Of a DNA stretch of 37,262 nt, positions 804 through 37,262 are shown in pieces. Numbering within the stretch: position 1 is the first letter of the stretch; the number at the start of each line of letters is the position of its first letter. A model generated the notes under the pieces. It was not told the origin of the DNA, did not search any database, and saw only the letters and a program-made list of their open reading frames with translations. The stretch lies in NCBI GenBank assembly GCA_014763705.1, contig JACXUW010000002.1:1-37262 (forward strand). Reading direction: 5' to 3'. The DNA is from Micrococcales bacterium (lineage in GTDB: Bacteria; Actinomycetota; Actinomycetes; Actinomycetales; Dermatophilaceae). Both the position numbers and the translations under genes were made by a program.

Positions 804-806
804 GGG

Positions 807-1508
807 TCAGCGCTCCCGGCTGTCGAGGACGAGCGCCACGTTCCCGGTGGCGGCGCGAGCGGCCAGCTCGGCGGCCTGCGCTTCGGGGACCTCGAGCGAC
901 ACCACGGTCTGGCCGTTCTCGCCGTCCGGGGAGAGACCGACCACGGCGGCGGAGATGGTGGCCGGCGGGACCTGGCCGACCTCGCCCTGCTGCCCGGGGG
1001 TGGCCACGACCCGGACGTGGTCGCCAGCCAGCAGCTGTAGTCCGGGCATGAGGGAGGGGGGCAGCGCGACCCCGACGACGGACATCCCCTGCTCGGGCAG
1101 CACCGCGGTGCTGACGCTGTTCGGCGTGACGAGGCTGCCGGCCGCCATGTCTTTGACCGCTCGCTGCCCGACGAGGTCGGCCAGGTCGGCGCCGGGCACG
1201 CTCGTCAGGGCCGGGTCGACACCGACCTGGACAGTGATGAGGTCGGCCTGGGTGACGGTCTCACCCCGCGCGACGTCCTGCCGCAGCGCCACCACCTCAT
1301 GGGTGTTGCTCGTCGAGGACCACGTCCATACACCGAGGAGCGCGCCGAGGCACACGGCCGCGAACGACATGGCGACCAGGGCAGGACGCCGGCGTAGTCG
1401 CGGCGCGGGCACGACCGGCGCCGGCGATGAGACCGTGCTGTCCTCGGCCGTCCCGATGCGCAGTGTCTTCGCTGCTGTCGATGCGGTCGGTCGCGTCGTG
1501 GTCGACAT
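807..1508 (-). CDS. SAF-domain (CpaB-like) membrane-anchored protein
   Basis: Single N-terminal TM, then VVALRQDVARGETVTQADLITVQVGVDP...GQRAVKDMAAGSLVTPNSV, a SAF-domain pattern; 4-bp gap to the ParA-like gene. Confidence 0.7.
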   Translation of the reverse strand: MSTTTRPTASTAAKTLRIGTAEDSTVSSPAPVVPAPRLRRRPALVAMSFAAVCLGALLGVWTWSSTSNTHEVVALRQDVARGETVTQADLITVQVGVDPALTSVPGADLADLVGQRAVKDMAAGSLVTPNSVSTAVLPEQGMSVVGVALPPSLMPGLQLLAGDHVRVVATPGQQGEVGQVPPATISAAVVGLSPDGENGQTVVSLEVPEAQAAELAARAATGNVALVLDSRER

Positions 1509-1533
1509 CGTGTGTTCCCCTCGAAGAGTCGGC

Positions 1534-2481: not shown

Positions 2482-3065
2482 GGCTCGCCCTTGAGGGTGT
2501 CGACCGTGACGAAGAAGCCGTTCGACGTCTTCACGACCGTGTACGTGTACTTCTGCCGGTCCGGACGTCCGGATCGCACGACGGACTTGCCTGCCTTGTC
2601 GACGATGTCGACTCTCGAGACGTCAACACACGCTGTGACGGTGAAGGTCTTGCCGTCCTTGGTCGTGGCCTGCGCAGACTCCACCGAGGAGCGACCGACC
2701 TGCGCCCAGCCCTGCGCCTGCAGCGAGCCGAGCTCGACGCGGGCCTGGTCCGCAGCCTGGTCGCGGGCGACGGTGGCGATCAGGCTCAGGCTCTTCGCCG
2801 GGTCAGTGGCCACGTCGTCGAGGACGCCCCAGTAGCGGGTCACCGTGTCTGCTGCGGCAATCCGATCCTTCTCGGCCGGTGTCGAGTTGGTCGGTGTGGG
2901 GGTCGCGCTGGTCGAGGGCTGCGGGCTGGATGGGGCAGGCGTCGCAGACGGCGCGACCGTCGACGACGAGGGCGACGGTTGCGCGTCGTTGCACGCCGAC
3001 GTCAGCAGGGTGGCGGCGAGCAGCACGACGAGGCCGCGGGCGCGGTGAGGGCTTCGGGTCGTCAT
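2475..3065 (-). CDS. Putative lipoprotein
   Basis: Lipobox-like LLTSAC, Ser/Thr/Pro-rich linker, overlaps the downstream CDS by 7 bp. Confidence 0.6.
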   Translation of the reverse strand: MTTRSPHRARGLVVLLAATLLTSACNDAQPSPSSSTVAPSATPAPSSPQPSTSATPTPTNSTPAEKDRIAAADTVTRYWGVLDDVATDPAKSLSLIATVARDQAADQARVELGSLQAQGWAQVGRSSVESAQATTKDGKTFTVTACVDVSRVDIVDKAGKSVVRSGRPDRQKYTYTVVKTSNGFFVTVDTLKGEPC

Positions 3066-3405
3066 GTGCGTCTCCTCGATCTCCGCGGGCCAATGCCGTT
3101 CGTGGCCAGCGCAGGGACACTATCGCCGTGACTTGATACATTAGCACTAGTGCAGTCGAGCGACTTGCCCCAGCGGGGGAGACGGTAAATCGGAGTGGCA
3201 ACGCTGAGGGAGCTGCCGACAGGAGACCCATGCGACACACGCCAGCCCCTGAGCGTCGGCTCCACCCATCGAGTCGACGCTCGCGCCCCGCGCCTGCTTC
3301 CCATCCTGCGAAGTTAGCCCTCTGAAGCTCACAATGCATCCTGAAGCGTCGTCAATATATCTATGGACATACTGATAGCAACTGCTAGCGACGTAGGATT
3401 GGCGG

Positions 3406-3822
3406 ATGGAGTCCGCCGGCATCCCCGACCTTGCCGACAAGCTGCAGCACCTCTTCAAGACCATCCCGCAGGACCAGGGCCGCGGTTGGTTCACCAACGA
3501 GGCAGTGGTGCGCGAACTGGCCGAGCGCGGCGTGACGGTGACGGTGCAGCACCTCAGCAACCTTCGCAATGGTCGTCGGAGCAATCCTTCGGCCCGTCTC
3601 CTGGGTTCGATCGCAGACGTCTTCGGCGTCCCCGTCGGCTACTTCTTCGACCAGGACGAACAGCGACGCGTGAACGAGGACCTCGAAACGCTCTCGCAAC
3701 TACGTCGCGTGGGCGGGCTCCGTCTGCGCGGCGGCGAGCTCAGCCCAGAGGGCATCGTGCAGCTCATTGCGGCCCTCCAGGAAGTGGCGCGGACCGAAGA
3801 AGGACGTCCCGGGGAGAAGTGA
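3406..3822 (+). CDS. XRE-family HTH transcriptional regulator
   Basis: TNEAVVRELAERGVTVTVQHLSNLRNGRRSNPSARLLGSIADVFGVPVGYFFDQDEQ, HTH_XRE pattern. Confidence 0.75.
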   Translation: MESAGIPDLADKLQHLFKTIPQDQGRGWFTNEAVVRELAERGVTVTVQHLSNLRNGRRSNPSARLLGSIADVFGVPVGYFFDQDEQRRVNEDLETLSQLRRVGGLRLRGGELSPEGIVQLIAALQEVARTEEGRPGEK

Positions 3823-3826
3823 CCAG

Positions 3827-4315
3827 ATGTCTTCGTGGCGACACCACAGAGCCGTGCGCACCGGCCGATCACTCATCTCGCCCGGTACGACCGCGGATGA
3901 ACTTGTCGCCGCGTTGTCGCGACACCGTCGGCGCGAAATGGTCATCCTGCCGGTGGCGTTGTCCGGCAACGCACCATCCGGCGCTTGGATCCCCACCGAC
4001 GACCGCGACTACCTGCTGGTGCCGGCGACCGCGTCGCCGACTCGTCGTCGCTCGATCCTCTGCCACGAGGTCGGCCACATCCTGCTGCACCACGACCCCG
4101 CCCTGCACGACGGCCTGACCACCGACCAGATGCGGTCACTCGCACCGAACCTGCCTCTCGACACCACCCGTCGGATGCTGCAGCGTACGGGCTACACCGA
4201 CATCGAAGAGGCTGACGCCGAGCACGTGGGCACAGCGCTGTCCGCTGCCCTCGAGGACGTCGCCCGGGCAGCCGAGTGGGAGTCGTCCTCCCGCCTTTCT
4301 TCGCGGCTGCGATGA
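3827..4315 (+). CDS. ImmA/IrrE-type metallopeptidase-like protein
   Basis: HEVGHILLHH zinc-protease motif, ATG at 3827 right after the XRE gene. Confidence 0.75.
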   Translation: MSSWRHHRAVRTGRSLISPGTTADELVAALSRHRRREMVILPVALSGNAPSGAWIPTDDRDYLLVPATASPTRRRSILCHEVGHILLHHDPALHDGLTTDQMRSLAPNLPLDTTRRMLQRTGYTDIEEADAEHVGTALSAALEDVARAAEWESSSRLSSRLR

Positions 4316-5427
4316 CGGTCGCCGCTCTGCTTGCGGTCGCCGCCCTGTGGGGCACGGCCGGTTACCGCGTCTACCTGGCGCGCCGCAGACCCGCAGCCTG
4401 GCGAAACGCGCTGGCGCTGAGCGTCACGTCCATCGCGGCAGCCGCGACTGGTCACCTTGTGCGGGCGCGCCTCGATGAGTGGCTCGGCTTGGCGAACGTC
4501 ACGAACCTGGGGAGCCGACTGGCCCTCTGCATCGCTGTCGCGTCGGCGCAGCTCTACTTGCTGGAGATCCGCGAGTCCGACGCGTCCCGACCCCGCCGGC
4601 GTCGAATCACGGTGGCCGCCGCGGCCATGGCTGCCCTGTCCGTCGCCGCATGGGCCCTGGCGCCGATCCACGACGCGGAACTGGTCGACCTTGCAGACGC
4701 CCCGCGCCACCCCGCCAGCGCGATCTACGCCGTGATGATCTATCTCTACGTGGCCTGGTTCCAGGTCGACCTCGCTCGCTTTTCACTCCACAACGTCAAG
4801 GCGGCTCGCACCAAAGACCCACCCGCAGCCGTGGCCGTTGCGCTGATCGGGGCATCCGCGTGCGCCGCGATCGCACTGCTCCTGGCTTGGACAGCTCACA
4901 ACCTGAGCGAGCAGCTCCTCGCCAGTCCGACTCCCGTCCTGGATCGGCTGGCCGCCGGCCTGTTCCCGGTTCCGATTGCGCTGCTGGCCACCGGACTGCT
5001 CGCTCTGCCCCTGCTACCGAGGGTCGCCCACAGGGTCGCGGCACGCCGTCTGGTGCTGCGCCTGGATCCGCTGTGGCACGCGCTCGTGAGCCGGCACCCG
5101 CACGTCTACCTGCCACCACGGCAGGACCGCTTCCGACAGTTGCTGGATCCGAGGCTAGCGGCGCAACGTCGGCTCATCGAGATCTCCGATGCGCTCGAGG
5201 AGCACGGAGTGGAGCCGCCTCGCACGCTCCACGAGCTCGCCAGGGCGGTCGACGCGCGGCCGGCGCAGAGTGACCTGACCGCGAAGGACGCCCTGGTTCG
5301 CTTGGACGACGCGCCATGGCCCCAACCGCTCATCGATCTCAGCAAGGCGCTGCAGGCCGACCGAAAGGATCGAGGAGGGAAGGATGCGTCCGAGCTCGGA
5401 CGACCACGATCTGGCACGGCTGGCTGA
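4312..5427 (+). CDS. MAB_1171c-like (DUF6545-type) multi-TM protein
   Basis: ATGA overlap with the ImmA-like gene; about 7 N-terminal TM segments followed by a soluble domain (ARRLVLRLDPLWHALVSRHP...RRLIEISDAL), the layout of MAB_1171c-type proteins; position after XRE+ImmA fits. Confidence 0.55.
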   Translation: MTVAALLAVAALWGTAGYRVYLARRRPAAWRNALALSVTSIAAAATGHLVRARLDEWLGLANVTNLGSRLALCIAVASAQLYLLEIRESDASRPRRRRITVAAAAMAALSVAAWALAPIHDAELVDLADAPRHPASAIYAVMIYLYVAWFQVDLARFSLHNVKAARTKDPPAAVAVALIGASACAAIALLLAWTAHNLSEQLLASPTPVLDRLAAGLFPVPIALLATGLLALPLLPRVAHRVAARRLVLRLDPLWHALVSRHPHVYLPPRQDRFRQLLDPRLAAQRRLIEISDALEEHGVEPPRTLHELARAVDARPAQSDLTAKDALVRLDDAPWPQPLIDLSKALQADRKDRGGKDASELGRPRSGTAG

Positions 5428-6010
5428 GGCACGGTCGACGCCGGTCGCGCGCTTGATCGCCGGTGTCCTGACTCCTGCGAACGTCGTTCTGGCCTTGACC
5501 GTTTACATCGCGTTCAAGTACGCACCGAGCGTGGTAGCGGCCATCTCATGGTGGCTCGTCGCCGTGTTCCTCGTGGTCGGCATCCCGTACCTCATCCTTC
5601 TCCGCGCACTACGACGCGGCTCGGCCAGCGACCGCCAGGTGGTCCGCCGTTCCCAGCGACCAGCTCTCATGGCCTCCGCCGCCGCGGCCGTCGTCCTGGC
5701 CCTGGTTGTCCTTTACTTTGGCGGCGCCCCACGGCCATTGGTTTGGCTGATCCTCGCGATGACCTGCGGGCTCGTCGCGATGGCGATAACGAGCACGGTG
5801 TGGAAGGCCTCGATGCACCTCGCCGTCGCCTCTGGCGCTGTCGCGGTTCTGGCGCTAGAGAACCGGCTCGCGGGAGCCTTCGCTGCGCTGTTCCTTCCTC
5901 TGATCGCGTGGGCGAGGTGGCGCGAGGGCCGACACAGCGTCAGCCAACTGCTGGGAGGCGCTCTGATCGGAGCCGCGGCTGCAGGTGTCGTCTACGGACT
6001 GCTCCGGTGA
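5384..6010 (+). CDS. PAP2-like integral membrane protein
   Basis: Multiple TMs; WKASMHLAVASGAVAVLA and ARWREGRHSVSQLLGGALIGAA resemble PAP2 motifs 2 and 3, with motif 3 Asp replaced. Confidence 0.45.
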   Translation: MRPSSDDHDLARLAEARSTPVARLIAGVLTPANVVLALTVYIAFKYAPSVVAAISWWLVAVFLVVGIPYLILLRALRRGSASDRQVVRRSQRPALMASAAAAVVLALVVLYFGGAPRPLVWLILAMTCGLVAMAITSTVWKASMHLAVASGAVAVLALENRLAGAFAALFLPLIAWARWREGRHSVSQLLGGALIGAAAAGVVYGLLR

Positions 6011-6023
6011 CGAAACGCACTCT

Positions 6024-6467
6024 TCATTCGTCGTCCCGGCCGTGCCGCGAGCTCGCGACTGCCACCGTGACCGCCTCGACGCTGACGTTCAGCGCAGACG
6101 CCAGTGCCTGCAACGAGGCGGATGACGGCAGCCGCTCGAAATTGCCCGCCTCCCACCGCGCATAGGTAGGGAGTGACACATGCGCCTGCTCGGCGACCTG
6201 CCGTGCGCTCAAACCGGCGAGGACTCGCAGCCGACGCAGGTCCGGGCGCCCCCACACGGGTAGAAGGAGTTCGGCGGGCTGCACCCCAAGGACAGCTGCG
6301 ATCCGATGCAGGATCTCGGGCCGCGGTTCCGACGCGCCCCGCTCCCAGCGCGAAACACGCTCTCCCCCAGCGACTCCGACTTGATAGGCCAAGTCGTGCT
6401 GCGTCAAGCCAGCCCTCTCACGCGCAGCACGCAGGGCAGCCCTGTCCACTACAGATCCCGTGAGCAT
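6024..6467 (-). CDS. Double-HTH XRE-type regulator
   Basis: Two tandem XRE HTH segments: LRAARERAGLTQHDLAYQVGVAGGERVSRWERGASEPRPE and LRVLAGLSARQVAEQAHVSLPTYARWEAGNFERLPS; internal ATG at 6467 preferred over the 6614 ORF start. Confidence 0.65.
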   Translation of the reverse strand: MLTGSVVDRAALRAARERAGLTQHDLAYQVGVAGGERVSRWERGASEPRPEILHRIAAVLGVQPAELLLPVWGRPDLRRLRVLAGLSARQVAEQAHVSLPTYARWEAGNFERLPSSASLQALASALNVSVEAVTVAVASSRHGRDDE

Positions 6468-6691: not shown

Positions 6692-8095
6692 TCAGGGAAG
6701 GAGGGAGACGTCGACGACGGCCCAGAGAAGTCCGGCACCCAGACCCACGACGACCGAAATCGCCGCTCCCAGCTGCGCTGTCCGCGCGGACCACGGACGC
6801 GGGGCCGCCAGCCCCGCCGCGGGTTCCGCTCGAGCCAGGGCGGGTGCCACCCACCGGAGGTAGTAGAACAGCGACACCAGCGAGTTGCCGAGGACGACGA
6901 CCGTGAGCCACGGCATCCCGCCGTCCCACGCCGCGGTCGCGGTCGTCAGCTTGCCGACGAACACCGCCGTCGGGGGCGTGCCGACCAGGCCGAGAAGAGC
7001 GACGACGAGGGCGACGGCCAACCCCGGCCGACGACGGAGGAGTCCGGCGTAACCCGCGAGGTCGCGCACGTCCGGGAGCGCCGTCGTCACGGCGAAGGCG
7101 GCGATGTTGGTCACCGCGTAGGCGGCCAGGTACAGCAGCATCGACGGCAGCGCCAGGTCGCTCGTGCCCGCGACCGCGACGGGGACCAGGAGGTAGCCCG
7201 CCTGGCTCACGGTCGACCAGCCGAGGAGTCGTCGCGGGTCCTCCTGGCCGAACGCGGCGAGGTTGCCCAGGGTCATGCTCGCCGTGGCGATGACTGCGAC
7301 GAGCAGGCCCCAGGCGAGGGTGTCGGGGAGGGCGAGGAGCAGGCGGTACAACGCGATGACGGCACCGATCTTCGGCACTGTCGTGACGAAGGCCGCGGCG
7401 AGCCCGGTGGAGCCCTGCGCCGCGTCCGGGACCCAGAAGTGCGCCGGAACCGCTCCGGCTTCGAACGCCAGCCCGGCGACGACGAGGACGACCCCGGCGG
7501 CGACCGCGACGGTCGGCAGGCCCTCGAGGCGGGCGGCCAGGTCGGGGTAGCTGGTAGACCCGGCGAGCCCGTACACGAGCGTCACCCCGAGGAGCATGAG
7601 GATCCCGAAGATCGCCCCGACCAGGTAGGTCTTGAGCGCGGCCTCGGCGCCACGAGCAGTTCGGCGCAGCCCGACGAGGGCGTACACGGGCAGACTGGCG
7701 AGCAGGAACCCTACGGCAAGGACGAGGAGGTCACGTGCTCCCGTGAGCACCAGGGCGCCGGTGGCGGCGAACAGGACCAGGGCGTAGGTCTCGCTCTCGC
7801 GGTCGTTCCCGGCGACCTCGTCACCGGCCAGTAGCAGGACGAGCAGGGTCGCGACGGCGACGGTCACCCGTCCCGCGGTGGTCACGCCGTCGACGACGAA
7901 GGCACCCTCGAAGGCGGAGCCGGGCACGAGCGAGCCGAGGACGGCGGCGACGGCACACCCGAGGAGAGCGAGTGCGGCGACGGCCCGCAGGCGCCACTGG
8001 CGGCGACGTGCGGTGAACGAGCCGCCCAGCAGGCACACCAGTCCGCCCCCGAAGAGCAGCATCTCCGGCAGCATGGCCAGCGGTCGCATGTCCAT
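6692..8095 (-). CDS. nuoN: Complex I-like subunit N
   Basis: MDMRPLAMLPEMLLFGGG...; EAALKTYLVGAIFGILMLLGVTLVYGLAGS; WSTVSQAGYLL; LGLVGTPPTAVFVGK; FYYLRWV, NuoN pattern. ORF track extends spuriously to 9154. Confidence 0.85.
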   Translation of the reverse strand: MDMRPLAMLPEMLLFGGGLVCLLGGSFTARRRQWRLRAVAALALLGCAVAAVLGSLVPGSAFEGAFVVDGVTTAGRVTVAVATLLVLLLAGDEVAGNDRESETYALVLFAATGALVLTGARDLLVLAVGFLLASLPVYALVGLRRTARGAEAALKTYLVGAIFGILMLLGVTLVYGLAGSTSYPDLAARLEGLPTVAVAAGVVLVVAGLAFEAGAVPAHFWVPDAAQGSTGLAAAFVTTVPKIGAVIALYRLLLALPDTLAWGLLVAVIATASMTLGNLAAFGQEDPRRLLGWSTVSQAGYLLVPVAVAGTSDLALPSMLLYLAAYAVTNIAAFAVTTALPDVRDLAGYAGLLRRRPGLAVALVVALLGLVGTPPTAVFVGKLTTATAAWDGGMPWLTVVVLGNSLVSLFYYLRWVAPALARAEPAAGLAAPRPWSARTAQLGAAISVVVGLGAGLLWAVVDVSLLP

Positions 8096-8109
8096 CGACT
8101 CCACCGGCC

Positions 8110-9603
8110 TCACCCACCGAGAAGGCCGACGACCGACCTCGCGGCAGGCTCGACGACGTCCAGGAGGGGGCGCGGCGCGACACCGATGGCGAGCGAGAGC
8201 ACCAGCAGGGGTGCGATGGCCCACAGCTCGTGACCTGCGACATCCGTGAAGCCACGGGAGGACGGTCCGAGGTCGCCGGTGAAGACCCGTGCGAGGGTCC
8301 AGAGGAACACCCCGGACACGACGAGGATCCCGAGCAGGCCGACCGCGCTCCACGGGACGGCGGCGATGCTGCCGGTGAAGATCTGGAACTCGGCGACGAA
8401 CCCGGACAGCGCGGGCAGCCCGAGCGAGGCGAACGCGGCCACGGCGAACAGCCCCGTCGTGCGCGGCGCCGGCCCGGCCAGCCCTCCGAAGCGGTCGATC
8501 TCGTAGGTTCCCGAGCGGTCGAGGAACACACCGGCGATCAGGAACAGTGCTGCTGTGACGAGGCCGTGGCTCACCATCTGGGTCACCGCGCCGGACACGG
8601 CGATGCTCCGCGCCTCCGTCGTCCCCGACGACACGACCCCCGCCGCACCGACGGCGAGGACGACGTACCCCATGTGGTTGACCGACGTGTAGGCGATCAT
8701 CCGCTTGAGGTCCTTCTGGGCCAACGCGACCAGGGCTCCCCACAGCACCGACACCAGCCCGACGACGAGCACGACCCAGGCCCACGCCCGCCAGGCCTCG
8801 GGCAGCAGGACCATCCCCAACCGGACGAACCCGTAGGTCCCGAGCTTGAGCAGCACCCCGGCCAGGACCGCCGACCCGACGGCGGGAGCGTCGGTGTGCG
8901 CGGGCGGCAGCCAGGTGTGGAACGGGACCGTCGGCGTCTTCACGGCCAGCCCGAGGAGGATCGCACCCAGCACCGCGGCCGCCACGGTTCCGCCACCGGC
9001 GAACGGGTCCTGCCGGGCGAGCTCCAGCATGTCGAACGTGTGCGGGTCGGCGGCGAGGTACAGGCCGATGAACCCCGCCAGCAGCGCGAGGGAGCCGAGG
9101 AAGGTGTAGAGGAAGAACTGCAGGGCCGAGCGGGCGCGGTCGCCGTGGCCCCACCCTGCGATCACGACGTACATGCCGACGATGGACAGGTCGAAGAAGA
9201 CGAAGAAGAGGATGAGGTCCGCGGCGGCGAAGACGCCGAGACAGACCGTCTCCAGTGCGAGGAAGAGGGCGGCGCGGCTGCGTGGGCGGTCCGGGTCACG
9301 CACCGAGTACACGGCGCAGGCCAGGAAGACGACGGCGGTCATCGCGACGAGCGGGAGCGACAGCCCGTCGAGGCCGACGTGGTAGCTGGAGTCCACCCCG
9401 GGGATCCAGGGCACCTGCTCGTCGAAGGCCAGGGATCTGTCGGGCGGGGTCTCGTAGCGCCACCACAGGACCCCGACGAGCACGAGCTCGAGAGCCGACG
9501 CGAGCACCCACCCCCACCGGGCGGCGGTGGGACCGACACCGGGGACGAGCAGCAGCGACGCCGCCACGAGCGGAAGGAACACGGTCAGCGAGAGCACGGT
9601 CAC
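8110..9603 (-). CDS. nuoM: Complex I-like subunit M
   Basis: GTG at 9603 overlapping the nuoL stop; VKTPTVPFHTWLPPAHTDAPAVGSAVLAGVLLKLGTYGFVRLGM; QKDLKRMIAYTSVNHMGYVVLAVG; SLGLPALSGFVAEF. Confidence 0.88.
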   Translation of the reverse strand: MTVLSLTVFLPLVAASLLLVPGVGPTAARWGWVLASALELVLVGVLWWRYETPPDRSLAFDEQVPWIPGVDSSYHVGLDGLSLPLVAMTAVVFLACAVYSVRDPDRPRSRAALFLALETVCLGVFAAADLILFFVFFDLSIVGMYVVIAGWGHGDRARSALQFFLYTFLGSLALLAGFIGLYLAADPHTFDMLELARQDPFAGGGTVAAAVLGAILLGLAVKTPTVPFHTWLPPAHTDAPAVGSAVLAGVLLKLGTYGFVRLGMVLLPEAWRAWAWVVLVVGLVSVLWGALVALAQKDLKRMIAYTSVNHMGYVVLAVGAAGVVSSGTTEARSIAVSGAVTQMVSHGLVTAALFLIAGVFLDRSGTYEIDRFGGLAGPAPRTTGLFAVAAFASLGLPALSGFVAEFQIFTGSIAAVPWSAVGLLGILVVSGVFLWTLARVFTGDLGPSSRGFTDVAGHELWAIAPLLVLSLAIGVAPRPLLDVVEPAARSVVGLLGG

Positions 9604-11474
9604 CTCACGACGAGGAGCAGGACGACACCGAACGCGACGAGCGCGACGGCCTGGACGTAGTACTGGTGCAGCTGCCCGGTCTGCGGCCGCCGGGCCGCCC
9701 TCCCGGCCCGCCGGACGGCACCGGCGACCGCGAGGACCGTGCCGTGGATGCGCTGCTCGTCCACGGTCCCCGTGAACGACGCCACGCGGCGCGCTGCCGT
9801 GGCCACCCCGACGACGCCGGCCGAGATCCTCCGGTCGATGCCGTCCAGCGACTGCGCGAGCAGCACGGTCGGGCGGACCACGAAGTGGAGGACCGCATGC
9901 TCCACGCCACCCCAGGTCCGCACGAGGCCGACCCACCGGCCGTCGCGGCGGACGGGGCGCCACCAGAGCACGGCGATGACGAGCACCGAGAGCACACCGC
10001 TGCCGGCCATGCCCGACGCTCCGGGCTCGACGAGCGACCCCCCGACCACCTCTTCCACCCGCTGGGCGACCGCAGGGACGGCCAGAGCGCCCAGCAGCAC
10101 CGCGGCCGTCGCCAGGACGGCGATCGCCCCTGCCAGCGAGCGGGGCACCCCTCCCCGGGCCTTCTCCTCCGAGCCCCGTAGCTCCCGGGCCGGTTCGGCC
10201 TCGTCCGGTCCGACGGGTGCCCACAGGACCCGCAGGACGACCCCCGCGTACGCGGCCGACAGCCCGGCGCCGACCACGGCGACCAGCCCGAGCACGGTGG
10301 ACCGCTCGAAGGCCGCGGCCAGGACGAGGTCCTTGGTGGCCCACAGCGCCAGCGGCGGAACGCCCGCGAGCGAGAGCAACGCGACGGTCGCCGCGACCCG
10401 CACCAGCGGCCACTCCCCCACGGCGCCGCGCAACCCGTCCAGCGCCTTGGTGCCGAGGGCCGAGAGCCAGGCCCCGGCGGTGAGGAAGAGCGCGGCCTTC
10501 GTCGCGGCGTGGGCGACGAGGTGAGCCGTTCCCGCGGTCGTGGCACCGAGCCCGGCGGCGAGGACGACGAACCCCAGCTGGGCCGACGTCGAGGCCGCGA
10601 GGAGCTGCTTCAGGTCGCGCTGCCCCACCGAGACCAGCCCGAGGGCGACCGTCGTCAGGGCGCCCGACCACGCCGTGGCGGACCCGGCCCACGAGGTCGA
10701 CAGCAGCAGCGGGTCAAGGCGCAGCAGGAGGTACCCACCCATGGCGACCATGGCGGCCGAGTGCAACAGCGCACTGACCGGCGCCGGACCGTCCATCGCC
10801 CGGGACAGCCAGAAGGCGAGGACGAGCTGGGCGGCCTTCCCGAGCGCTGCGACGAGCACGCCGGCAGCCAGGACGTCCCGCCACCCGGGTGGTGCGGTGG
10901 AGAGGTCGGCCAGTCCCAGTCCGGCACCCCCTGCCAGGGCCGCTCCCGCCGCGACGTACAGGCCGAGGTCGGCGGCCCGCGTCGTGAGGAAGGCGGTGAG
11001 GCCGGAGGCCACCCGCCGCCGCTCTCGCCACTCGAAGCCGATGAGGGCGTACGAGGTCGCGCCCATGACCTCCCAGGCGAGAAGGAGGGTGGGCAGTGTC
11101 GTCGCCGTGACGGTCAGCAGGGCGGCCGCCGTGAAGACCAGCATCAGGCCGTGGAAGCGGCGGCGTGACTCGCGGACGTCCGCCGCCCCGCCGAGCAGCG
11201 CGAGGGTCGCCACGACCGACACGACGGGGGCGACCACCGCCGCGAGGCCGTCGACCTCCAGCGCGAGGTCGGACCCCGCGAGGAACGGCACCCCGACGGA
11301 CGGCCGCATCGTCGCGACGGCAACGGCCAGCAGGCTCGTCACCGCAGCAACGCCCACGCCCACCGCCGGCGCGGCGCGTCCGCGCACCGCCCAGGAAGGC
11401 GCCGTCACCAACGCGCCCCCCGCGACCGCGGGCAGCGCGACGAGAGCCCAGAGGGCGGTCTGCGCCAAGGTCAT
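9600..11474 (-). CDS. nuoL: Complex I-like subunit L
   Basis: LLLAWEVMGATSYALIGFEW; ALGKAAQLVLAFWLSRAMDGPAPVSALLHSAAMV; QRDLKQLLAASTSAQLGFVVLA; HLVAHAATKAALFLTAG; ATKDLVL. Confidence 0.88.
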   Translation of the reverse strand: MTLAQTALWALVALPAVAGGALVTAPSWAVRGRAAPAVGVGVAAVTSLLAVAVATMRPSVGVPFLAGSDLALEVDGLAAVVAPVVSVVATLALLGGAADVRESRRRFHGLMLVFTAAALLTVTATTLPTLLLAWEVMGATSYALIGFEWRERRRVASGLTAFLTTRAADLGLYVAAGAALAGGAGLGLADLSTAPPGWRDVLAAGVLVAALGKAAQLVLAFWLSRAMDGPAPVSALLHSAAMVAMGGYLLLRLDPLLLSTSWAGSATAWSGALTTVALGLVSVGQRDLKQLLAASTSAQLGFVVLAAGLGATTAGTAHLVAHAATKAALFLTAGAWLSALGTKALDGLRGAVGEWPLVRVAATVALLSLAGVPPLALWATKDLVLAAAFERSTVLGLVAVVGAGLSAAYAGVVLRVLWAPVGPDEAEPARELRGSEEKARGGVPRSLAGAIAVLATAAVLLGALAVPAVAQRVEEVVGGSLVEPGASGMAGSGVLSVLVIAVLWWRPVRRDGRWVGLVRTWGGVEHAVLHFVVRPTVLLAQSLDGIDRRISAGVVGVATAARRVASFTGTVDEQRIHGTVLAVAGAVRRAGRAARRPQTGQLHQYYVQAVALVAFGVVLLLVVR

Positions 11475-11487
11475 CCAGTCGAGCCCC

Positions 11488-11790
11488 TCATCCGGCCAGG
11501 TCCGTCGCGGAGTCGGTCATGTCGCTGCCGCGGTGGCGGTGGACGAGGGTGGCGACCGCGAACCCCATCGCCATCTCGACGGTCATCGCGGCCAGGACGA
11601 CGAGGAGGAGCACCTGGCCGGTGGGGTCCGGGGCGAGGAACCACCACATCGCGCCGGCGGCCAGGATCACGGCGTTGACCATGACCTCCAGGCCCATCAT
11701 CACCATGACGACGACCTGCTGGGAGATGGCGCCGCAGAGGCCGACCGCGAACAGGGCGGCCGCGACGAGCAGGACGGTCTGGAGGGTCAT
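11488..11790 (-). CDS. nuoK: Complex I-like subunit K
   Basis: 100 aa, GLEVMVNAVILAAGA and MTVEMAMGFAVATLVHR with both conserved TM Glu residues. Confidence 0.85.
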   Translation of the reverse strand: MTLQTVLLVAAALFAVGLCGAISQQVVVMVMMGLEVMVNAVILAAGAMWWFLAPDPTGQVLLLVVLAAMTVEMAMGFAVATLVHRHRGSDMTDSATDLAG

Positions 11791-12359
11791 CGGCCGACGC
11801 CTCCCCGCTCTGGGTCGCGCGGCGTTCGCACGTCGAGGTCGTCGCCGAACCGGTCGTAGCGGGTGCGACCGGAGGCCAGGACGATCCCCCCGACGATGGT
11901 CGCGACCATGACTGGGCTGACGACGACCATGACGAGCATCTGCTTCCCCATGAGGGACTCACCCAGCGCGGCCGTGACGTCGGGCGACGGGACCCCACGG
12001 CGCACCGGCCACGGCACGAGCAGCGCTCCGGCGCCGAGGACGACGAAGGCGGCGACGGACACGGCGAGGGCGGCCCGCTTGTCGTGGACCATCGACATCG
12101 GCATCAGAGCCGGGTTCATCCCCATGTACATCACCATGTAGACGGCCATGACGGCCATCTCCATCACCATCATCAGGACCGTCACCACGCCGACGTAGTT
12201 CTGCTGGAGCAGCAGGAGGGCGAGCCCCACCGCCACGAAGGACAGCGCCAGCGCGTACGTGGCGCGGGCCATGGAGTCGACGACGAAGACGACGACCGCG
12301 GAGGCGACGGCCAGGACCCCGAGGACCCAGAAGCCGATGTCGACGAGCACCCCGCTCAC
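11787..12359 (-). CDS. nuoJ: Complex I-like subunit J
   Basis: GTG at 12359; ARATYALALSFVAVGLALLLLQQNYVGVVTVLMMVMEMAVMAVYMVMYMG matches NuoJ layout; 4-bp overlaps with both neighbours. Confidence 0.75.
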   Translation of the reverse strand: MSGVLVDIGFWVLGVLAVASAVVVFVVDSMARATYALALSFVAVGLALLLLQQNYVGVVTVLMMVMEMAVMAVYMVMYMGMNPALMPMSMVHDKRAALAVSVAAFVVLGAGALLVPWPVRRGVPSPDVTAALGESLMGKQMLVMVVVSPVMVATIVGGIVLASGRTRYDRFGDDLDVRTPRDPERGGVGR

Positions 12360-13300
12360 CCCCGCACCGCGACGACGACGGCGACGACGAGGTCCTGCAC
12401 GAGGACGGCGGGCAGCAGGACGACCCAACCGACCTCCATCAGCCGCTCCGGACGCACCGACGGCAGGGCCCGCCGGGCGAGGACGAACAGCGCGAGGAGC
12501 ACACCGGCCTTCACGGGGACCCACAGCCACCCGGGGAGCACCGGTCCCGCACCGCCACCGAGGAACAGAGGGACGGCGAACAGGGCACCCGCCGCGAGCA
12601 GGGCGTACCGGCCCGCCTGCGCCAGGAGCCGGTCGACCCCGCTGAGCTCGGCGAACACCCCACCGGCCAGGTCGTGACCGGCCGGGACCGCGAACGGACC
12701 CCACACGGAGAAGGCGACGACGCCGAGACAGTAGACGGCGAACGCGACCGGCATCCAGACGACGAACCAGAGGCCGGACTGGGCCGCCGCCACGTCACCG
12801 AGCCGGAGACTGGCGGCTCCGACCCCCGGGGCGACAAGGGCGAACATCAGCGGCAGCTCGTAGGCCAACGCCAGGGCCAGGAAGCGGTACCCCCCGACGA
12901 GGGAGTGCGCCGAGTTGGCCCCCCAGCCGAGGAGCCAGACCAGGGCCCAGACGAGAACGTCCATGGTGTTGAACCACACGATGCCGACGTCGAGGTCGGA
13001 CACCACGTGGTCGCCGAAGGGGACGACGGCGACCATGAGGAGGGCGGCGACCACGAGCCCGCTGCTTCCTACGCGCCACACCAGGGTGTCGGCCGACAGC
13101 GGTGCGCGGCGCCGCTGACGGAGCAGACGGGCCGTCTCGTCGACCACACGGGTCAGGCTCGGCCGCAGAGGAGCTCCCTCCGACCTCGCCGCCAGGACGC
13201 CGTCGAGAACGACCGCCCCCACGGCCAACGCGAGCAGGGCTGCGGCCCACAGGAGAAGACCCGGCAGACCGACGGTCGTGAGCGACGACGCGTCAGACAT
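12356..13300 (-). CDS. nuoH: Complex I-like subunit H
   Basis: LLGWGANSAHSLVGGYRFLALALAYELPLMFALVAPGV resembles NuoH 'GWaSNskYsllGglRa.aq.isYE'; start ATG 13300. Confidence 0.8.
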   Translation of the reverse strand: MSDASSLTTVGLPGLLLWAAALLALAVGAVVLDGVLAARSEGAPLRPSLTRVVDETARLLRQRRRAPLSADTLVWRVGSSGLVVAALLMVAVVPFGDHVVSDLDVGIVWFNTMDVLVWALVWLLGWGANSAHSLVGGYRFLALALAYELPLMFALVAPGVGAASLRLGDVAAAQSGLWFVVWMPVAFAVYCLGVVAFSVWGPFAVPAGHDLAGGVFAELSGVDRLLAQAGRYALLAAGALFAVPLFLGGGAGPVLPGWLWVPVKAGVLLALFVLARRALPSVRPERLMEVGWVVLLPAVLVQDLVVAVVVAVRG

Positions 13301-14375
13301 CGACGACCTCCCGGACCGCTGTGGCGCCCAGACTGGCGACGACGAGCCGCGCCTCCCCCACGTCGAGCCCGGTGACGAGAGCCGCCACCGTCTCGGGCCC
13401 CACGAGCTCCGCGCTGGAGACGTCGGCGCCCTCGTTGGAGGTCGCGGCTCGAGCCCGGTCGACCAGGACGAGGAGCCGGTCGCGGCAGTCGCCGACGAGC
13501 CAGTCCGGCACGTCGAACCCCGGTGCGGACTCCGCCGAGACGGTGCCGGCTCCCGCCAGCGACCACCGCATCGTCCGGGACCTCTCGATCCGGCGGCGCA
13601 GGCCCGACAGGACCGTCGCCGCGACCTCGTCCCGGCCGTCGAGTGCCGCGTCCCTCGCCCGTCGGGCGCGGGCGGCACCGTCCGCCCACCCGGCCAGGTC
13701 GAGCATGGCAGCAAGGTCGTCACAGCGCCGGGCCCCCAGCAGGGCCGCCCCGGCCTCGGTGGAGGCCCCTGCGGGCACGAAGGACCCGGTCGCAGCCACC
13801 ACGAGATCCCCGTGCAAGACCAGGTCGAGGACCAGACCCGCCGGCCACGCGGGCAGAATCGGACCCAGCCGCAGCGGCAGCTCGTCCATCTCGAGCCCGT
13901 CACGGTCGTGCTCGGACGCGCCGGCGAGCGGGATCCCGTCCGGCGCCATGTCCATTTCGCCGTGGTCCATCCCGCCGTGGTCCATCTCGCCGTGGCCTGT
14001 GGAGTCGTCGGCGCGTGCCGGGTCGCCACTCGCCGACCCGGACCGTCCGTCGGCATCCGTGCGTTGTGTCCCGTCGTCCACGAGGTCCAGCACCGCGGCG
14101 TCGAGCACGTCCGCCACGGCGGCCGCGCTCTCGGCGCGGCCACGGGCACGAGGTCCCGGCATGGCATCCCAGTGTCGCTCGACGATCTCGGCCATCTCGC
14201 CGTCCGCACGGCCGGTGACGACGAGGACGTCGGCGGACGCCGGCGAGAGCGCCAGTCGCCACCCTCGGGCGCGCACGGCCCGTTCCACAGCGACCCGGAC
14301 CTCCCACGAGCCCGGGCACTCGACGACGAGGACACGCGCGGCGCGGACGGCCCGTCGTGCGAGCCAGGACCTCAC
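13293..14375 (-). CDS. Fused degenerate NuoB-like/NuoD-like protein with His/Met-rich linker
   Basis: GTG at 14375 overlapping the nuoA stop (GTGA). N-terminal SADVLVVTGRADGEMAEIVERHWDAMPGPR resembles NuoB 'aDvlivaGtvt.kMap.lrr.yeqMpePk'; C-terminal LPLRLGPILPAWPAGLVLDLVLHGDLVV resembles NuoD 'GPqHPaaHGvlrlvleldGe'. Sits between nuoA and nuoH where nuoB-C-D normally lie. Confidence 0.6.
   Translation of the reverse strand: MRSWLARRAVRAARVLVVECPGSWEVRVAVERAVRARGWRLALSPASADVLVVTGRADGEMAEIVERHWDAMPGPRARGRAESAAAVADVLDAAVLDLVDDGTQRTDADGRSGSASGDPARADDSTGHGEMDHGGMDHGEMDMAPDGIPLAGASEHDRDGLEMDELPLRLGPILPAWPAGLVLDLVLHGDLVVAATGSFVPAGASTEAGAALLGARRCDDLAAMLDLAGWADGAARARRARDAALDGRDEVAATVLSGLRRRIERSRTMRWSLAGAGTVSAESAPGFDVPDWLVGDCRDRLLVLVDRARAATSNEGADVSSAELVGPETVAALVTGLDVGEARLVVASLGATAVREVVDV
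13951..13995 (-). repeat. Three tandem 15-bp repeats (tccatNtcgccgtgg-like) encoding an HGxMD repeat
   Basis: tccatttcgccgtgg / tccatcccgccgtgg / tccatctcgccgtgg read directly at 13951-13995. Confidence 0.9.
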
Positions 14376-14713
14376 GCCCACCGCAGCGCCCCTTCCCGCC
14401 AGGCCCAGGCGACGGCCACGAGAAGCGCACCGAGGAAGACGAACATCTCGGTGACGGCGCTCGCGCCCAGGTCTGCGACGACGACCGCCCACGGGTACAT
14501 GAAGAGCATCTCGACGTCGAAGGCAAGGAACAAGAGCGTCGCGAGGTACCACCGCACGTGGAAGCGCGAGAGGGCATGGGCGTCCGGCTCCCAGCCGGAC
14601 TGGTACGGCAACGGGCGGAGCGCACCACGCCACGGCACGAGCAGCCAGTGGACGGCGTACACGACGGCGACCCCGCCGACGGCGAGGATCGCCATCGCGA
14701 GCAGGCCACTCAT
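14372..14713 (-). CDS. nuoA: Complex I-like subunit A
   Basis: LPYQSGWEPDAHALSRFHVRWYLATLLFLAFDVEMLFMYPWAVV matches NuoA 'pYEcG.....rf.vrFYl.A.lFliFDvEvvFlyPWa'. Confidence 0.88.
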   Translation of the reverse strand: MSGLLAMAILAVGGVAVVYAVHWLLVPWRGALRPLPYQSGWEPDAHALSRFHVRWYLATLLFLAFDVEMLFMYPWAVVVADLGASAVTEMFVFLGALLVAVAWAWREGALRWA

Positions 14714-32359: not shown

Positions 32360-33020
32360 GTGACCACCGAGACCTCGCGCCCGTCCGAGCCCACCGGCAG
32401 CGGCCGCCGCCCAGCCTGGACCGCGCTCGCCCTGGCGAGCCTCACGGCGCTGCTCCTCGGAGCGCTGAGATCCATTCTCGTCGTTCGCGCCGCGACCTCG
32501 ACCTCGGTGGCCGACACCGGCGCCGACGTCGGCTTCTCCCGCGACATGCAGACCCACCACCGGCAAGCTGTCGAGATGGCCCTCATCATCCGGGACCGCA
32601 CCGACGACGCGGCGGTCCGCACCCTCGCCTACGACATCGCCACAAGCCAGCAACAACAAGCCGGCCAGATGTACGGCTGGCTCGTGCAGTGGGGCCTGCC
32701 GCAGACCGCGCCCCGCAGACTCATGGCCTGGGCCGACCATGTGGACACGAGTCAGAGCAAGCGCTGATGGGATGCCGGCGATGATGCCCGGTATGGCCAC
32801 CGACCAGCAGCTCGACGAGCTCCGGACAGCCCGAGGCGTGGAGGCGGAACGGATCTTCCTGCGCCTGATGATCGACCACCACCGAGGCGGCGTCGCGATG
32901 GCCGAGGCCGGCCTCGCCGACGCGAAGACCCCTGAGGTCAGGACGCTCGCCGGCGCCATCGACCGAGCGCAGAGGGGCGAGATCGAGCTCATGTCGTCGA
33001 TGCTCGCCGACCGTACGTGA
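32360..33020 (+). pseudogene. DUF305-domain protein interrupted by an apparent frameshift
   Basis: First half in one frame (DMQTHHRQAVEMALIIRDR...GWLVQWGLPQ, stop 32767); second half in another frame (DGMPAMMPGMATDQQ...RLMIDHHRGGVAMAEAGL, stop 33020). Confidence 0.7.
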
Positions 33021-33063
33021 ACGCTCCGCGGACCGGGTCGGGACCAGGAAGAAGGTCGCCGCG

Positions 33064-34002
33064 TCACACTGGTTGCTCTCCGGCGCGGCGCGTGCGCACC
33101 GAATCCACGGACACGGTCGTCGACGCAGGATGGTCGACCTGCAGGGTGGTGTGCTCGATGTCGTGGTCGTCGCTCAGCATCTGCGCGATGGCCTTGCGGC
33201 GTTCGTGGCAGTCGTGCCGGTCTGCCACCAGGACGTGCGCGGACAGCGCGGGGAACCCGGAGGTGACCTCCCAGACGTGGAGGTCGTGGACCTCGACCAC
33301 GCCGTCGACCGCGCGGATGTCCCGCTCGATGGCGGCGACGTCGGTGCCCCGGGGTGCGGCCTCGAGGAAGATCCGCCCCGAGTCGCGCAACAGCCCCCAG
33401 CCCGCCTTGGCCATCAGCGCGGCCACGACGAGCGCGGCGACGGCGTCGGCGCGGGCCCAGCCGGTCAGGAGAACGACGAGCCCGGCGAGCGCGGTGGCGA
33501 TGAACGCGAAGAGGTCGTTGAGGATGTGCTGGAAGGCACCCTCGACGTTGAGCGAGCTGCGGTCGGCCCGGGCGATCAGCCAGCTCGCCCCGAGGTTGAC
33601 GACGATCCCCACGAGCGCGGTGACCAGGACCAGGCCGCCGGACACTTCCGGTGCATCGAGGAACCGCTGCACCGCTTCGTAGGCGAACCACGCCGTCAGG
33701 CCCCACAACGTGAGGCCGTTGAGCTGGGCGGAGAGGATCTCCACGCGCTTCCAGCCGAAGGTGAGGTTGCCCCGGGCCGGGCGCGCAGCCACCCGCCGGG
33801 CCGCCAGCGCGAGGGCGATCGCGGCTGCGTCGGTCAGCATGTGCCCCGCGTCGGAGATCAGCGCCAACGACGAGGCGATGACGCCGACGACGACCTCCAC
33901 CGCCATGAACACGAGGATCAGCGCCAGGGCGGCGCCCAGGTACCGCCCGTCCTGCCGCCCACCGTTGGCGCCTCCGCTCCCGCCGTGGCCGTGGCCCGTC
34001 AT
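33064..34002 (-). CDS. CDF-family cation efflux transporter (CzcD-like)
   Basis: MTGHGHGGSGG...SSLALISDAGHMLTDAAAIALALAARRVAARPARGNLTFGWKRVEILSAQLNG...LNVEGAFQHILNDLFAFI; VEVHDLHVWEVTSGFPALSAHV. Confidence 0.92.
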   Translation of the reverse strand: MTGHGHGGSGGANGGRQDGRYLGAALALILVFMAVEVVVGVIASSLALISDAGHMLTDAAAIALALAARRVAARPARGNLTFGWKRVEILSAQLNGLTLWGLTAWFAYEAVQRFLDAPEVSGGLVLVTALVGIVVNLGASWLIARADRSSLNVEGAFQHILNDLFAFIATALAGLVVLLTGWARADAVAALVVAALMAKAGWGLLRDSGRIFLEAAPRGTDVAAIERDIRAVDGVVEVHDLHVWEVTSGFPALSAHVLVADRHDCHERRKAIAQMLSDDHDIEHTTLQVDHPASTTVSVDSVRTRRAGEQPV

Positions 34003-34700
34003 CGCGCATCCTCCCTGCTCGTCCCACCCGATGAGCAGCACCCGGCGTTGACCTCGTCCCCGCCGCCGGACGTCGCGCAGCAACCCTCTCCCCGCCACGC
34101 CTCGCGGCCCTCGTTGGCTGCGACCCCGGCGATGGCCAGGCCGACGACCGGGTCGGCCCACCACCACCCGAGGGTCGCGTTGAGGACCAGCCCGAGGAGC
34201 AGAACGCCCGAGAGGTAGGTGCACAGCAGGGTCTGGGTCGAGTCGGCCACGACCGCCTGCGAGCCCAGCGCCCGTCCGGTGCGTCGCTGTGCCCGCGACA
34301 ACCACGGCATCACCAGCAGGGACGCCACGGCCAGCACCATGCCCACGGTCGAGGACTCGGGGGTGTGGCCCGCCACCAGCGCCCGGACGGACTCGACACC
34401 GACGTACCCGGCGAGCGCGAAGAACGCCACCGCCATCGCGCGCAGAGCTCGCCGCTCCCGTTTCTCCGGAAGGTGATGGGCGAACTGCCACAGGATGATC
34501 AGACCGCTAGAGACCTCGACGACGGAGTCCAGGCCGAAGCCTACGAGGGCCACCGACCCCGCGGCCACCCCGGCGCCGACGGCGATGACCGCCTCGACGG
34601 CGTTGTAGACCACGGTGGCGCCGGCGAGCAGCCTCGCCCGCCGGCCCAGCCGAGCCCGTTCGGTTGCGCTGAGCGGGACCGCACCCAGCGAAACGCTCAC
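33999..34700 (-). CDS. CDF-like transmembrane cation transporter with Cys-rich C-terminus
   Basis: VYNAVEAVIAVGAGVAAGSVALVGFGLDSVVEVSSGLIILWQF...VADSTQTLLCTYLSGVLLLGLVLNATLGWWWADPVVGLAIAG; tail GEGCCATSGGGDEVNAGCCSSGG. Confidence 0.8.
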   Translation of the reverse strand: MSVSLGAVPLSATERARLGRRARLLAGATVVYNAVEAVIAVGAGVAAGSVALVGFGLDSVVEVSSGLIILWQFAHHLPEKRERRALRAMAVAFFALAGYVGVESVRALVAGHTPESSTVGMVLAVASLLVMPWLSRAQRRTGRALGSQAVVADSTQTLLCTYLSGVLLLGLVLNATLGWWWADPVVGLAIAGVAANEGREAWRGEGCCATSGGGDEVNAGCCSSGGTSREDAR

Positions 34701-35104
34701 GCCCTGCTCACCTCCACCGTCGCAGCACCGTGCCGAGGGCACAGGACGACGGCGTCGCCGGTCAGGCCGAGCAGGCGCTCGGCGGCCGAGAGCAGATCGA
34801 GCGTCGCCTCCCGGTGGGCCAGGGAGTACACCGACGCTCTCCCCTGCGTCCGGACCGTGACGATGCCGCAGTCGAGCAGACACGCCAGGTGCTTCGACAC
34901 CGTCGACTGCGCCAACCTCAAGTGAGCGGTGAGGTCCACGACCCTGTGCTCCCCTTGGACCAGGTGCTGCACGATTGCGACGCGCGACCGATCCCCGAAG
35001 CCGTGGAACAGACACGCCGCCGCCGTCAAAGCCCCCACCTCGACAGAGGGCTCGACCGCAGACACGTGTGCAGTTGCATCGACGTTCGGCTTTGGCATCG
35101 ACAT
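34697..35104 (-). CDS. ArsR-family metalloregulator, CmtR-like
   Basis: HTH LRLAQSTVSKHLACLLDCGIVTVRTQGRASVYSL with C-x3-C in the recognition region and a later Cys (VVLCPRHG). Confidence 0.78.
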   Translation of the reverse strand: MSMPKPNVDATAHVSAVEPSVEVGALTAAACLFHGFGDRSRVAIVQHLVQGEHRVVDLTAHLRLAQSTVSKHLACLLDCGIVTVRTQGRASVYSLAHREATLDLLSAAERLLGLTGDAVVLCPRHGAATVEVSRA

Positions 35105-35363
35105 AATGCGATGCTACTGGCGGGTCCAACTCCGTTCAAGCCACCGACCGGCGCGGTCATGCACCAGCAGTTCGGCTGGCGAGCGATCTCCAGCACCCGA
35201 CACGTCACCGCTCCGAGGAGGGACTGCTGCACCAATCGGCGACGCAATCTCGGGACTTGTCGGCGGGGAGGCCAGCCGTTCAGTAGTCAAGAATTCTCGT
35301 CCATGACCCCGCCGGACCCACTGACCCGCGCCGCCGCTACGTGCGCACCACTACTCTCGACCC

Positions 35364-35684
35364 ATGAAGGCCGTGACCGACCAGAGCGCAGCTCTGCGCT
35401 TGGCCCTCACGCGCCACCGCGGTGATCTGCACCAGATCCTCGAACGCTACTCCGCGAGCAACGCACGACTCTTCGGCTCCGTGGCGCGCGGCGAGGCCGG
35501 TCCTGGAGGCGACATCGACCTGCTGGTAGACCTCCTTCCCAGCGGCGGCAACCCACTGCTGCGGGTCTCCGGAATCGCCGAAGAGCTGAGCGTCCTCCTC
35601 GATGCCAGGCTCGACGTCGTGGCGCCCTCATTGCTCCGGGATGACGTGTCGGCCAGCGCCCTGTCAGACGCGGTGGTCTTGTAA
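35364..35684 (+). CDS. MNT-type minimal nucleotidyltransferase (MntA-like antitoxin)
   Basis: ARLFGSVARGEAGPGGDIDLLVDL, GSx(n)DxD motif. Confidence 0.82.
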   Translation: MKAVTDQSAALRLALTRHRGDLHQILERYSASNARLFGSVARGEAGPGGDIDLLVDLLPSGGNPLLRVSGIAEELSVLLDARLDVVAPSLLRDDVSASALSDAVVL

Positions 35685-35992
35685 GCCGGTCGGACCAGCA
35701 ACGGTTCGACGACATCCTGCACGCTATCGAGCGTTGCCAGGACTGTGCACCGCACCTGAGCTCGGGTGACTTCACCGCCATGGCCTATGACGCGGTCCTG
35801 CGCAACCTCGCCGTCATCGGCGAGGCCGTACGGACCCTGCCCGAGGAGACACGAGCCTCGATGCCGGACGTGCCGTGGGCGTCGATCGCGGGCCTGCGCA
35901 AGGTCGTCGGACACGAGTACTTCCGAGTCGCACCTTCGCCCTGGACACCGTCGAGCATGATCTCGCCGACCTCGCCGGTCCTCCGCGCCTGA
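35684..35992 (+). pseudogene. Decayed HEPN/HepT-like toxin
   Basis: Frame encodes SRSDQQRFDDILHAIERCQ...AYDAVLRNLAVIGEAVRTLPEE...GLRKVVGHEYFRV (R-x4-H-x-Y) but has no start codon in place and its C-terminus (TVEHDLADLAG) lies in another frame. Confidence 0.65.
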
Positions 35993-36130
35993 GTGAGCCG
36001 CTCCTCGACAACCACGCGGTGCAATTGTGGTGCAGTTGCAGGCTGTCTCAATCTGTCTCACCAACGTAGGCTGGGAGCGAAAGCGCAGGTCGAGCGACCG
36101 GATGAGTCTTCCTGACACAGGGTGCCGTGA

Positions 36131-36173
36131 CCTTTTAATCCGTAGGTTGTGGGTTCGAGCCCCACGGGGCCCA
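36131..36173 (+). other. 3' fragment of tRNA-Lys(TTT), putative attachment site
   Basis: CCTTTTAATCCGTAGGTTGTGGGTTCGAGCCCCACGGGGCCCA: anticodon loop CTTTTAA, intact T-arm GTGGG-TTCGAGC-CCCAC and acceptor 3' strand, but no matching D-arm or 5' acceptor strand upstream. Confidence 0.7.
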
Positions 36174-36361
36174 CTCTCCGTGGCTCAGCCGACAGCATGC
36201 CGGTCGTCGAATCCACTCCCCCTCACCCACGATGGGCTTGACGGATTGCGGCGACTGCCTACTGCGCGGGTTGCCGTGGACTTACTCTGCGCGAGTGGAC
36301 GACTCCGAAGCACGCAGGACCCTGTCCAGCGGACGGCAGTTCCGCATTGAAGGGCGCGGAA

Positions 36362-37262
36362 GTGCCGGCTGACGTGTTCGATGCAGATGGGCTGCGGCGG
36401 CTCGCGCGATCGGCGGAGGCGTTCCGGGTGGCGGCCCTGGCGTGGCTGGAGGTTCACGAGACGCGCAGCGACATATCCCGCTCTGGGACGCGGCCGACCG
36501 TGCGTCAGTTCGTCGACGCGAATCCTGGCGAGGTATCTCGCCTGGCTGCGGAGGTCGAACGGTGGGCTCAGGACGCAGAGACCGCTATCGACTTGACCGG
36601 CCGCTTTGTGCCTCAGTCGGACGCGCCTGGCCGCAACGCGGCTCGCGAATGGTCCACCATGACCTCCAAGGGCACGGTGAACGCCAGTGAGTTGGACATA
36701 TACGGCACGGCAGGCGTCCTGGAGGAACTAGCTGGCCGGGGCGACCGGGGCATCTCGATCTTCCCAGTCCAAGACCCCCGGATCCTGCACCCCTACGTGT
36801 GGTGCCAGACGGTAGTGAGTCAGTGGATCAAAGAGGACTACTCCGCGATTCCCGCCAGCGCCGCCGAGGTGGTCTCCTCGAGTTGGGCGCACCGCATCGC
36901 CCTGGCACAGGCCGAGCAGCCTCGGCAACCGCAGTATCCGGACGGGGCCCGCTTTTGGCAGGGACTGTTCTCGGCGCAGGCCCCGGCCGAGCGGCAGCCT
37001 CGGCTGCGAGTGCCGGACTACGGCGACCCGGAGCGCACCGCCGCCCGCCAGCACGCATTGGGCGAGGCCCTCTCCGGGCTAGACGCACTGAGCGGGGGAT
37101 ATAGGCGCCTCTTCGGTCGCGAGGGCGGCACCCCGACGCTGCAGATGGACCAAGTCGCCGGCTGGCTGCACGCCTGGTCCACGCTGGCGTTCCTCCTCGA
37201 GGAGTGCACTCTCTTCCTGCCCGAGAGCCATGCCCCGGAACCGACGCCCGCCCCCGCCGTCC
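36362..37262 (+). CDS. Hypothetical protein, runs off the window end
   Basis: Uninterrupted frame from GTG 36362 (VPADVFDADGLRRLARSAEAFRVAALAWLEV...) to the last base; not in the ORF track. Confidence 0.5.
   Translation, partial: MPADVFDADGLRRLARSAEAFRVAALAWLEVHETRSDISRSGTRPTVRQFVDANPGEVSRLAAEVERWAQDAETAIDLTGRFVPQSDAPGRNAAREWSTMTSKGTVNASELDIYGTAGVLEELAGRGDRGISIFPVQDPRILHPYVWCQTVVSQWIKEDYSAIPASAAEVVSSSWAHRIALAQAEQPRQPQYPDGARFWQGLFSAQAPAERQPRLRVPDYGDPERTAARQHALGEALSGLDALSGGYRRLFGREGGTPTLQMDQVAGWLHAWSTLAFLLEECTLFLPESHAPEPTPAPAV

Follow-up and report, generated by a model that had tools for sequence, protein, structure and literature searches.

Analysis of the window, that is, the whole 37,262-nucleotide stretch of DNA presented here, indicates that it is very probably the right third of a tyrosine-recombinase ICE, complete or decayed, that occupies a tRNA-Lys(TTT) gene in the genome of an actinobacterium of the genus Nostocoides and ends in an attR at 36132-36174. 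The window is an entire contig (G000:C92), and both its edges are contig ends. The ICE would have been inserted into the 3′ end of tRNA-Lys(TTT) by its tyrosine recombinase. Recombination inside the segment between the anticodon loop and the acceptor end would have restored the tRNA on the left (attL, beyond the contig), and the native 3′ half of the gene, displaced in the process, would have stayed behind at 36132-36174. The element would then fill the contig from its left edge as far as 36131, with a Tad-type module (3-6464), nuo-copper cargo from 6690 to about 35.1 kb, the MntA/HepT-like pair and, last, a right arm with paired sites. By analogy with a complete element in genome G172, the intact tRNA, Xis and integrase are predicted to lie roughly 55 kb further left. 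We infer that attL and an integrase exist in the strain itself; any present mobility of the element is likewise presumed.

The tRNA-Lys 3′ fragment

The attR core (36132-36174, plus strand), a 43-bp 3′ part of tRNA-Lys(TTT), was assigned from its sequence, its uniqueness and its identity in congeners. Its letters, CTTTTAATCCGTAGGTTGTGGGTTCGAGCCCCACGGGGCCCAC, run from the anticodon loop (CTTTTAA, with a TTT anticodon) through an intact T-arm to the acceptor 3′ strand, without the 5′ half of the gene. A tRNA 3′-end duplicate, as expected of the attR of a tyrosine-recombinase ICE, is thus found at the far boundary of the element. The original prediction had described this fragment correctly but had placed it at 36131-36173. 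No tRNA was called by ARAGORN or Rfam anywhere in the window, which is consistent with the fragment being half a gene. An RNase MRP match at 36090-36187 was dismissed as chance (10.6 bits versus a curated threshold of 50). A pattern search revealed a single copy of the fragment in the strain's own assembly even when 3 mismatches were allowed (the reversed pattern, used as a control, gave 0 matches).

The same 43 bases are present, without any difference, inside intact tRNA-Lys(TTT) genes of six congeners (G001, G005, G007, G009, G010 and G011), which argues for an ICE. An intact gene with this 3′ end had also been expected in the strain's own genome, but none was found in the draft (708 contigs, 93.9% complete) with the 3′ pattern, the tRNA family, a looser T-arm pattern or two 5′-half patterns. 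The only lysine tRNA seen there was tRNA-Lys(CTT), on contig C634; anticodons were read at the loci of 30 of the 39 tRNA matches, the rest being mostly longer Leu/Ser-type genes. Since reading AAA codons needs tRNA-Lys(TTT), the strain's intact gene is most likely located in an assembly gap; as the assembly lacks it, we infer insertion at this gene in the strain itself. Contig C528 of the draft matches genes on the flank of the congeners' tRNA-Lys, but the similarity ends before the tRNA is reached, and the insertion site could therefore not be reassembled from the strain's own contigs. A search for Phage_integrase gave no match on contig C92.

The right arm and the sequence beyond the core

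The core is adjoined by the element's right arm (36016-36131, plus strand), which was delimited by alignments with G006 (Nostocoides sp. Soil756), G001 and G172. Right arm and core are found beside tRNA-Lys 3′ repeats at 84-95% identity in Soil756 and G001 and occur at 74% identity in G172; conservation of the arm together with the repeat supports the ICE reading. Two direct sites, GGTGCA(A/G)TT-N3-GGTGCAGTTGC, located at 36018-36039 on the plus strand, are putative integrase arm-type binding sites, as judged from pattern counts and the G172 left arm. Alignment of the right arms of the window, G172, two Soil756 modules and G001 revealed the conserved direct-site pair GGTGCAGTT, 12 bp apart and about 105-115 bp before the core. 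The pair has 1 match in the window, with 0.00 expected by chance, and recurs next to the integrase gene of G172, in the left arm. Its occurrence in both arms is a further argument for an ICE. In the Soil756 left arms the pair is replaced by one inverted site, which sets their left ends apart from the G172 type.

The sequence at 36175-37262 (plus strand) was assigned to the outside of the element, either chromosome or the next insertion, from an arm-site search, shuffles and a family search. No arm-type site was detected right of the core, and similarity of this sequence to left arms was no better than that of shuffles, both of which argue against attP. With no left arm following the core, the attP reading of the fragment was rejected. 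The ORF found in this flank had no family match in Pfam or NCBIfam. A search for its homologues produced one weak plasmid match (24.6%, TIGR02391 family), which was of no help in placing the flank.

A complete element in a related genome

A full conjugative element was found in a tRNA-Lys(TTT) gene of G172, a genome of another genus in the same family. It lies on G172:C8, measures about 89.7 kb repeat to repeat and is oriented as in the window. Its order is intact tRNA-Lys(TTT) (contig position 1007762-1007837), HTH_17 Xis-like gene, tyrosine integrase (about 0.5 kb from the tRNA), TrwC relaxase, TraG/D coupling protein, T2SSE/T2SSF Tad genes, TadZ-SAF module, cargo, right arm and attR. The TadZ-SAF-hypothetical-HTH module, also in the orientation of the window, is located about 30 kb left of the copy of right arm and repeat. 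This synteny, with tRNA and attR on one stretch, supports the ICE reading. It also supports the original prediction that the element lies to the left of the fragment with the intact tRNA past the left edge, which, the window being the whole contig, means past a contig end.

The left 6.4 kb and the right end of the window match the G172 element at 72-74% DNA identity. The ICE backbone module (3-6464) was identified by DNA matches, Pfam and NCBIfam and comprises TadZ-like and SAF/CpaB-like genes, two hypotheticals, an HTH gene, an ImmA/IrrE peptidase, a MAB_1171c family member, a membrane protein and a double HTH. It is 72% identical to the G172 ICE over 30-3154 and 6100-6437, and 71-74% identical to G130 over 30-6379. 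The window itself contains only the TadZ-SAF end of the conjugative backbone; the relaxase and coupling protein are known from G172, and homologues of them from G171. Relatives of the window's TadZ-like gene occur, at varying identity, in 78 of 188 genomes of the family.

Most of the same backbone is present beside tRNA-Arg(ACG) in G171 (locus G171:C1:3269992-3271756), which contains homologues of G172 TrwC and TraG/D and an integrase of its own, 43.5% identical to that of G172. Because this backbone stands at tRNA-Arg(ACG) in one genome and at tRNA-Lys in the other, the window's family seems to consist of ICEs with different integrases for different target tRNAs. On contig C64 of the strain itself (L154, 3-3620) a second TadA/TadZ/SAF set was observed, about 62% identical to that of the window. 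At about 5800-5864, 2.2 kb from this set, there is a tRNA 3′ fragment with anticodon loop CTCCTAA, probably of tRNA-Arg(CCT). Together they probably mark where another ICE of this genome ends.

The Soil756 array and occupancy of the site

In Soil756 four copies of the repeat were found on one contig (NZ_LMSE01000007.1, 251,071 bp), to which the cargo protein P0001 also led. They form an array in which an intact tRNA-Lys comes first and three modules, each with the repeat at its end, stand behind it (G006:C7:77619-117415). Module 2 contains window positions 6690-32608 (25.9 kb) at 97-98% DNA identity. Contigs of the strain that carry neighbouring core genes are 76% identical to Soil756 (weighted), and the block is therefore far more alike than the chromosomes. 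A block at 97% between tRNA-Lys 3′ repeats, against a backbone at about 76%, speaks for an ICE and supports the earlier view of the nuo-copper genes as cargo of an ICE or island.

No Phage_integrase match was obtained between the Soil756 repeats. By gene content module 2 is of the CIME kind, with att repeats kept and integration and transfer genes absent; with a tRNA-Lys 3′ repeat on either side and no tyrosine integrase, it is a putative cis-mobilizable derivative. ISL3 transposases are present in two of the three modules. One of them splits the tail of module 1, where the matches on its two sides have 8 window bases in common (36064-36071), which would represent an 8-bp target duplication.

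The same site is occupied differently in G005. G005 and Soil756 agree on the left as far as the tRNA (88%) and on the right from the repeat onwards (94%). Between these flanks lie different inserts, one of about 29.9 kb that includes an integrase (G005) and one of about 39.7 kb (Soil756). Both flanks in common and different inserts are what insertion at one site predicts, and thus argue for an ICE. The prediction had set two outcomes against itself, a lack of tRNA-Lys genes sharing the 3′ end and conserved synteny across the site; neither appeared, since the 3′ end is shared by congeners and synteny across the site is not conserved.

The nuo-copper cargo

The nuo-copper block (6690-32608) was delimited by identity with Soil756 and by Pfam. 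It includes nuoN to nuoA, a two-component system, CopA, CopZ, CsoR, a multicopper oxidase, NicO, DUF305 and CcdA/ResC, among others. Pfam analysis revealed NuoA, H, J and K, proton-antiporter subunits, CopA, CopZ, CsoR, multicopper oxidase, NicO, DUF305 and cytochrome c assembly genes. The complex I membrane-arm set, including NuoA, H, J, K, L, M and N, is located at 6692-14713, beside the copper genes. No NuoB, C, D, E, F, G or I was identified among the cargo proteins scanned, which were a subset of the ORFs. Protein P0001 (13293-14381) is NuoB/D-like: it aligns with positions 44-93 of a NuoB profile (2fug_6, E = 1.6e-5) and has a weak match to the 49-kDa subunit (E 0.02). In an alignment of four P0001 sequences from three genera, an MDHG-type Met/His motif is invariant and none of the cysteines is; a homologue from a fourth genus is encoded on an Ornithinimicrobium plasmid.

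Related nuo-copper sets were found in Arthrobacter, Ornithinimicrobium and Kocuria, including those on Arthrobacter sp. FB24 plasmid 1 and on pINDO-MA30-4. A membrane arm with a NuoB/D-like protein is found in four or more actinobacterial genera, both on plasmids and on islands. A search of plasmids with NuoL at E 1e-60 gave no matches, though plasmid homologues exist. Nuo subunits, usually in partial sets, have been reported on plasmids in 57 species (PMC12361115), and a text search of that survey found no mention of copper. The cargo is more interesting than the boundary, which is of a well-known kind, while the cargo is unusual. Tentatively, the island may spread a copper-linked derivative of complex I, in which the membrane arm (NuoA, H, J, K, L, M, N) is kept, NuoB and NuoD are replaced by one fused MDHG protein in which no cysteine is invariant, and copper binding or redox is possibly coupled to ion movement.

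Right of the block, an extension at 32609-35219 contains, according to Pfam, the end of a frameshifted DUF305 gene, a cation efflux (CDF) gene and an ArsR-type regulator; it is not part of the Soil756 block and had no match to that genome. The DUF305 gene (32360-33020) is split over two frames, its N- and C-terminal halves separately matching PF03713. A toxin-antitoxin pair of an MntA-like nucleotidyltransferase and a HepT-like protein (35364-35992, plus strand; Pfam PF01909 and PF01934) adjoins the right arm; the same pair is also found near the ends of the Soil756 modules and in G009. The HepT-like gene (35684-35992) is frameshifted near its C-terminus relative to Soil756.

Alternative explanations

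The ICE reading has to accommodate the absence of integrase, relaxase and attL from the window and the fact that TadZ/SAF genes are common on actinobacterial plasmids. The contig could accordingly be part of a plasmid, the fragment being a plasmid attP core or a captured island end and the nuo-copper genes being plasmid-borne here. TadZ/SAF homologues do occur on about 200 plasmids, and Ornithinimicrobium pINDO-MA30-4 has both the TadZ-SAF-hypothetical-HTH order and a nuo-copper cluster. The right flank, however, has neither the left arm nor the arm-type site that an attP of this family would need. Moreover, contigs of 1.1-5.2 Mb in G130, G171 and G172 are among the nearest relatives that the backbone module has (75-79% protein identity), and in the latter two genomes an integrase adjoins a tRNA. 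We consider a plasmid improbable. That the fragment is a chance match or degenerate tRNA remnant, with no mobile element involved, is hardly credible: tRNA pseudogenes exist and the assembly has no second copy, but the 43 bp are identical to functional genes, a conserved element arm stands directly upstream in four genomes, and the Soil756 and G172 loci already contradict this explanation.

A narrower version of the ICE reading has a greater, though still minor, share of probability. According to it, the element here is cis-mobilizable, with att sites kept and integration and transfer genes lost, as in Soil756, where three tandem modules lack a tyrosine integrase and one has the same cargo. 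The frameshifts in HepT and DUF305 fit decay. Unlike Soil756, the window retains the TadZ-SAF-HTH module of a full ICE. On the preferred reading of a tRNA-Lys ICE, whether complete or decayed, an isolated half-tRNA from a fragmented draft becomes a boundary that is mapped and can be assigned to an ICE family of these actinobacteria, and the mapping predicts the positions of the missing integrase and tRNA. A block of copper and partial complex I genes has moved between Nostocoides species at 97% identity. It poses a testable question, namely the role of a complex I membrane arm without the usual Fe-S module in copper-handling clusters.

Comparison with known systems

The ICE on G172:C8 is like the window's element in its tRNA-Lys(TTT) 3′ target, 43-bp repeat, right arm with paired sites, TadZ-SAF-HTH module and cargo between that module and the right arm. 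It differs in its cargo, by inspection rhodanese, cytochrome oxidase and others rather than nuo-copper genes, and the window covers the right part only. The term CIME is used for decayed elements in tandem arrays that have retained their att sites (PMC5704250; PMC3146451, Dehalococcoides ssrA islands). The Soil756 modules resemble CIMEs, being att-bounded, without tyrosine integrase and in tandem behind one tRNA, whereas the strain's own element keeps part of the ICE backbone.

AICEs in tRNA-Lys are known in Frankia (PMC3218068); these and the G005 and G010 elements have the same target gene and a tyrosine integrase. In the G005 and G010 elements the integrase is convergent with the tRNA, and G010 has a RepSA initiator; the window's family is set apart from AICEs by other arms and, in G172, by a TrwC relaxase and a TraG/D coupling protein, where an AICE would be expected to have a RepSA-type initiator and an FtsK-like transfer protein. 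The clusters on Arthrobacter sp. FB24 plasmid 1 and pINDO-MA30-4 combine NuoA, the NuoB/D-like protein, H, J, K, L, M and N with copper genes, at 36-74% protein identity. They differ in their plasmid location, in a comparison based on gene content and protein identity.
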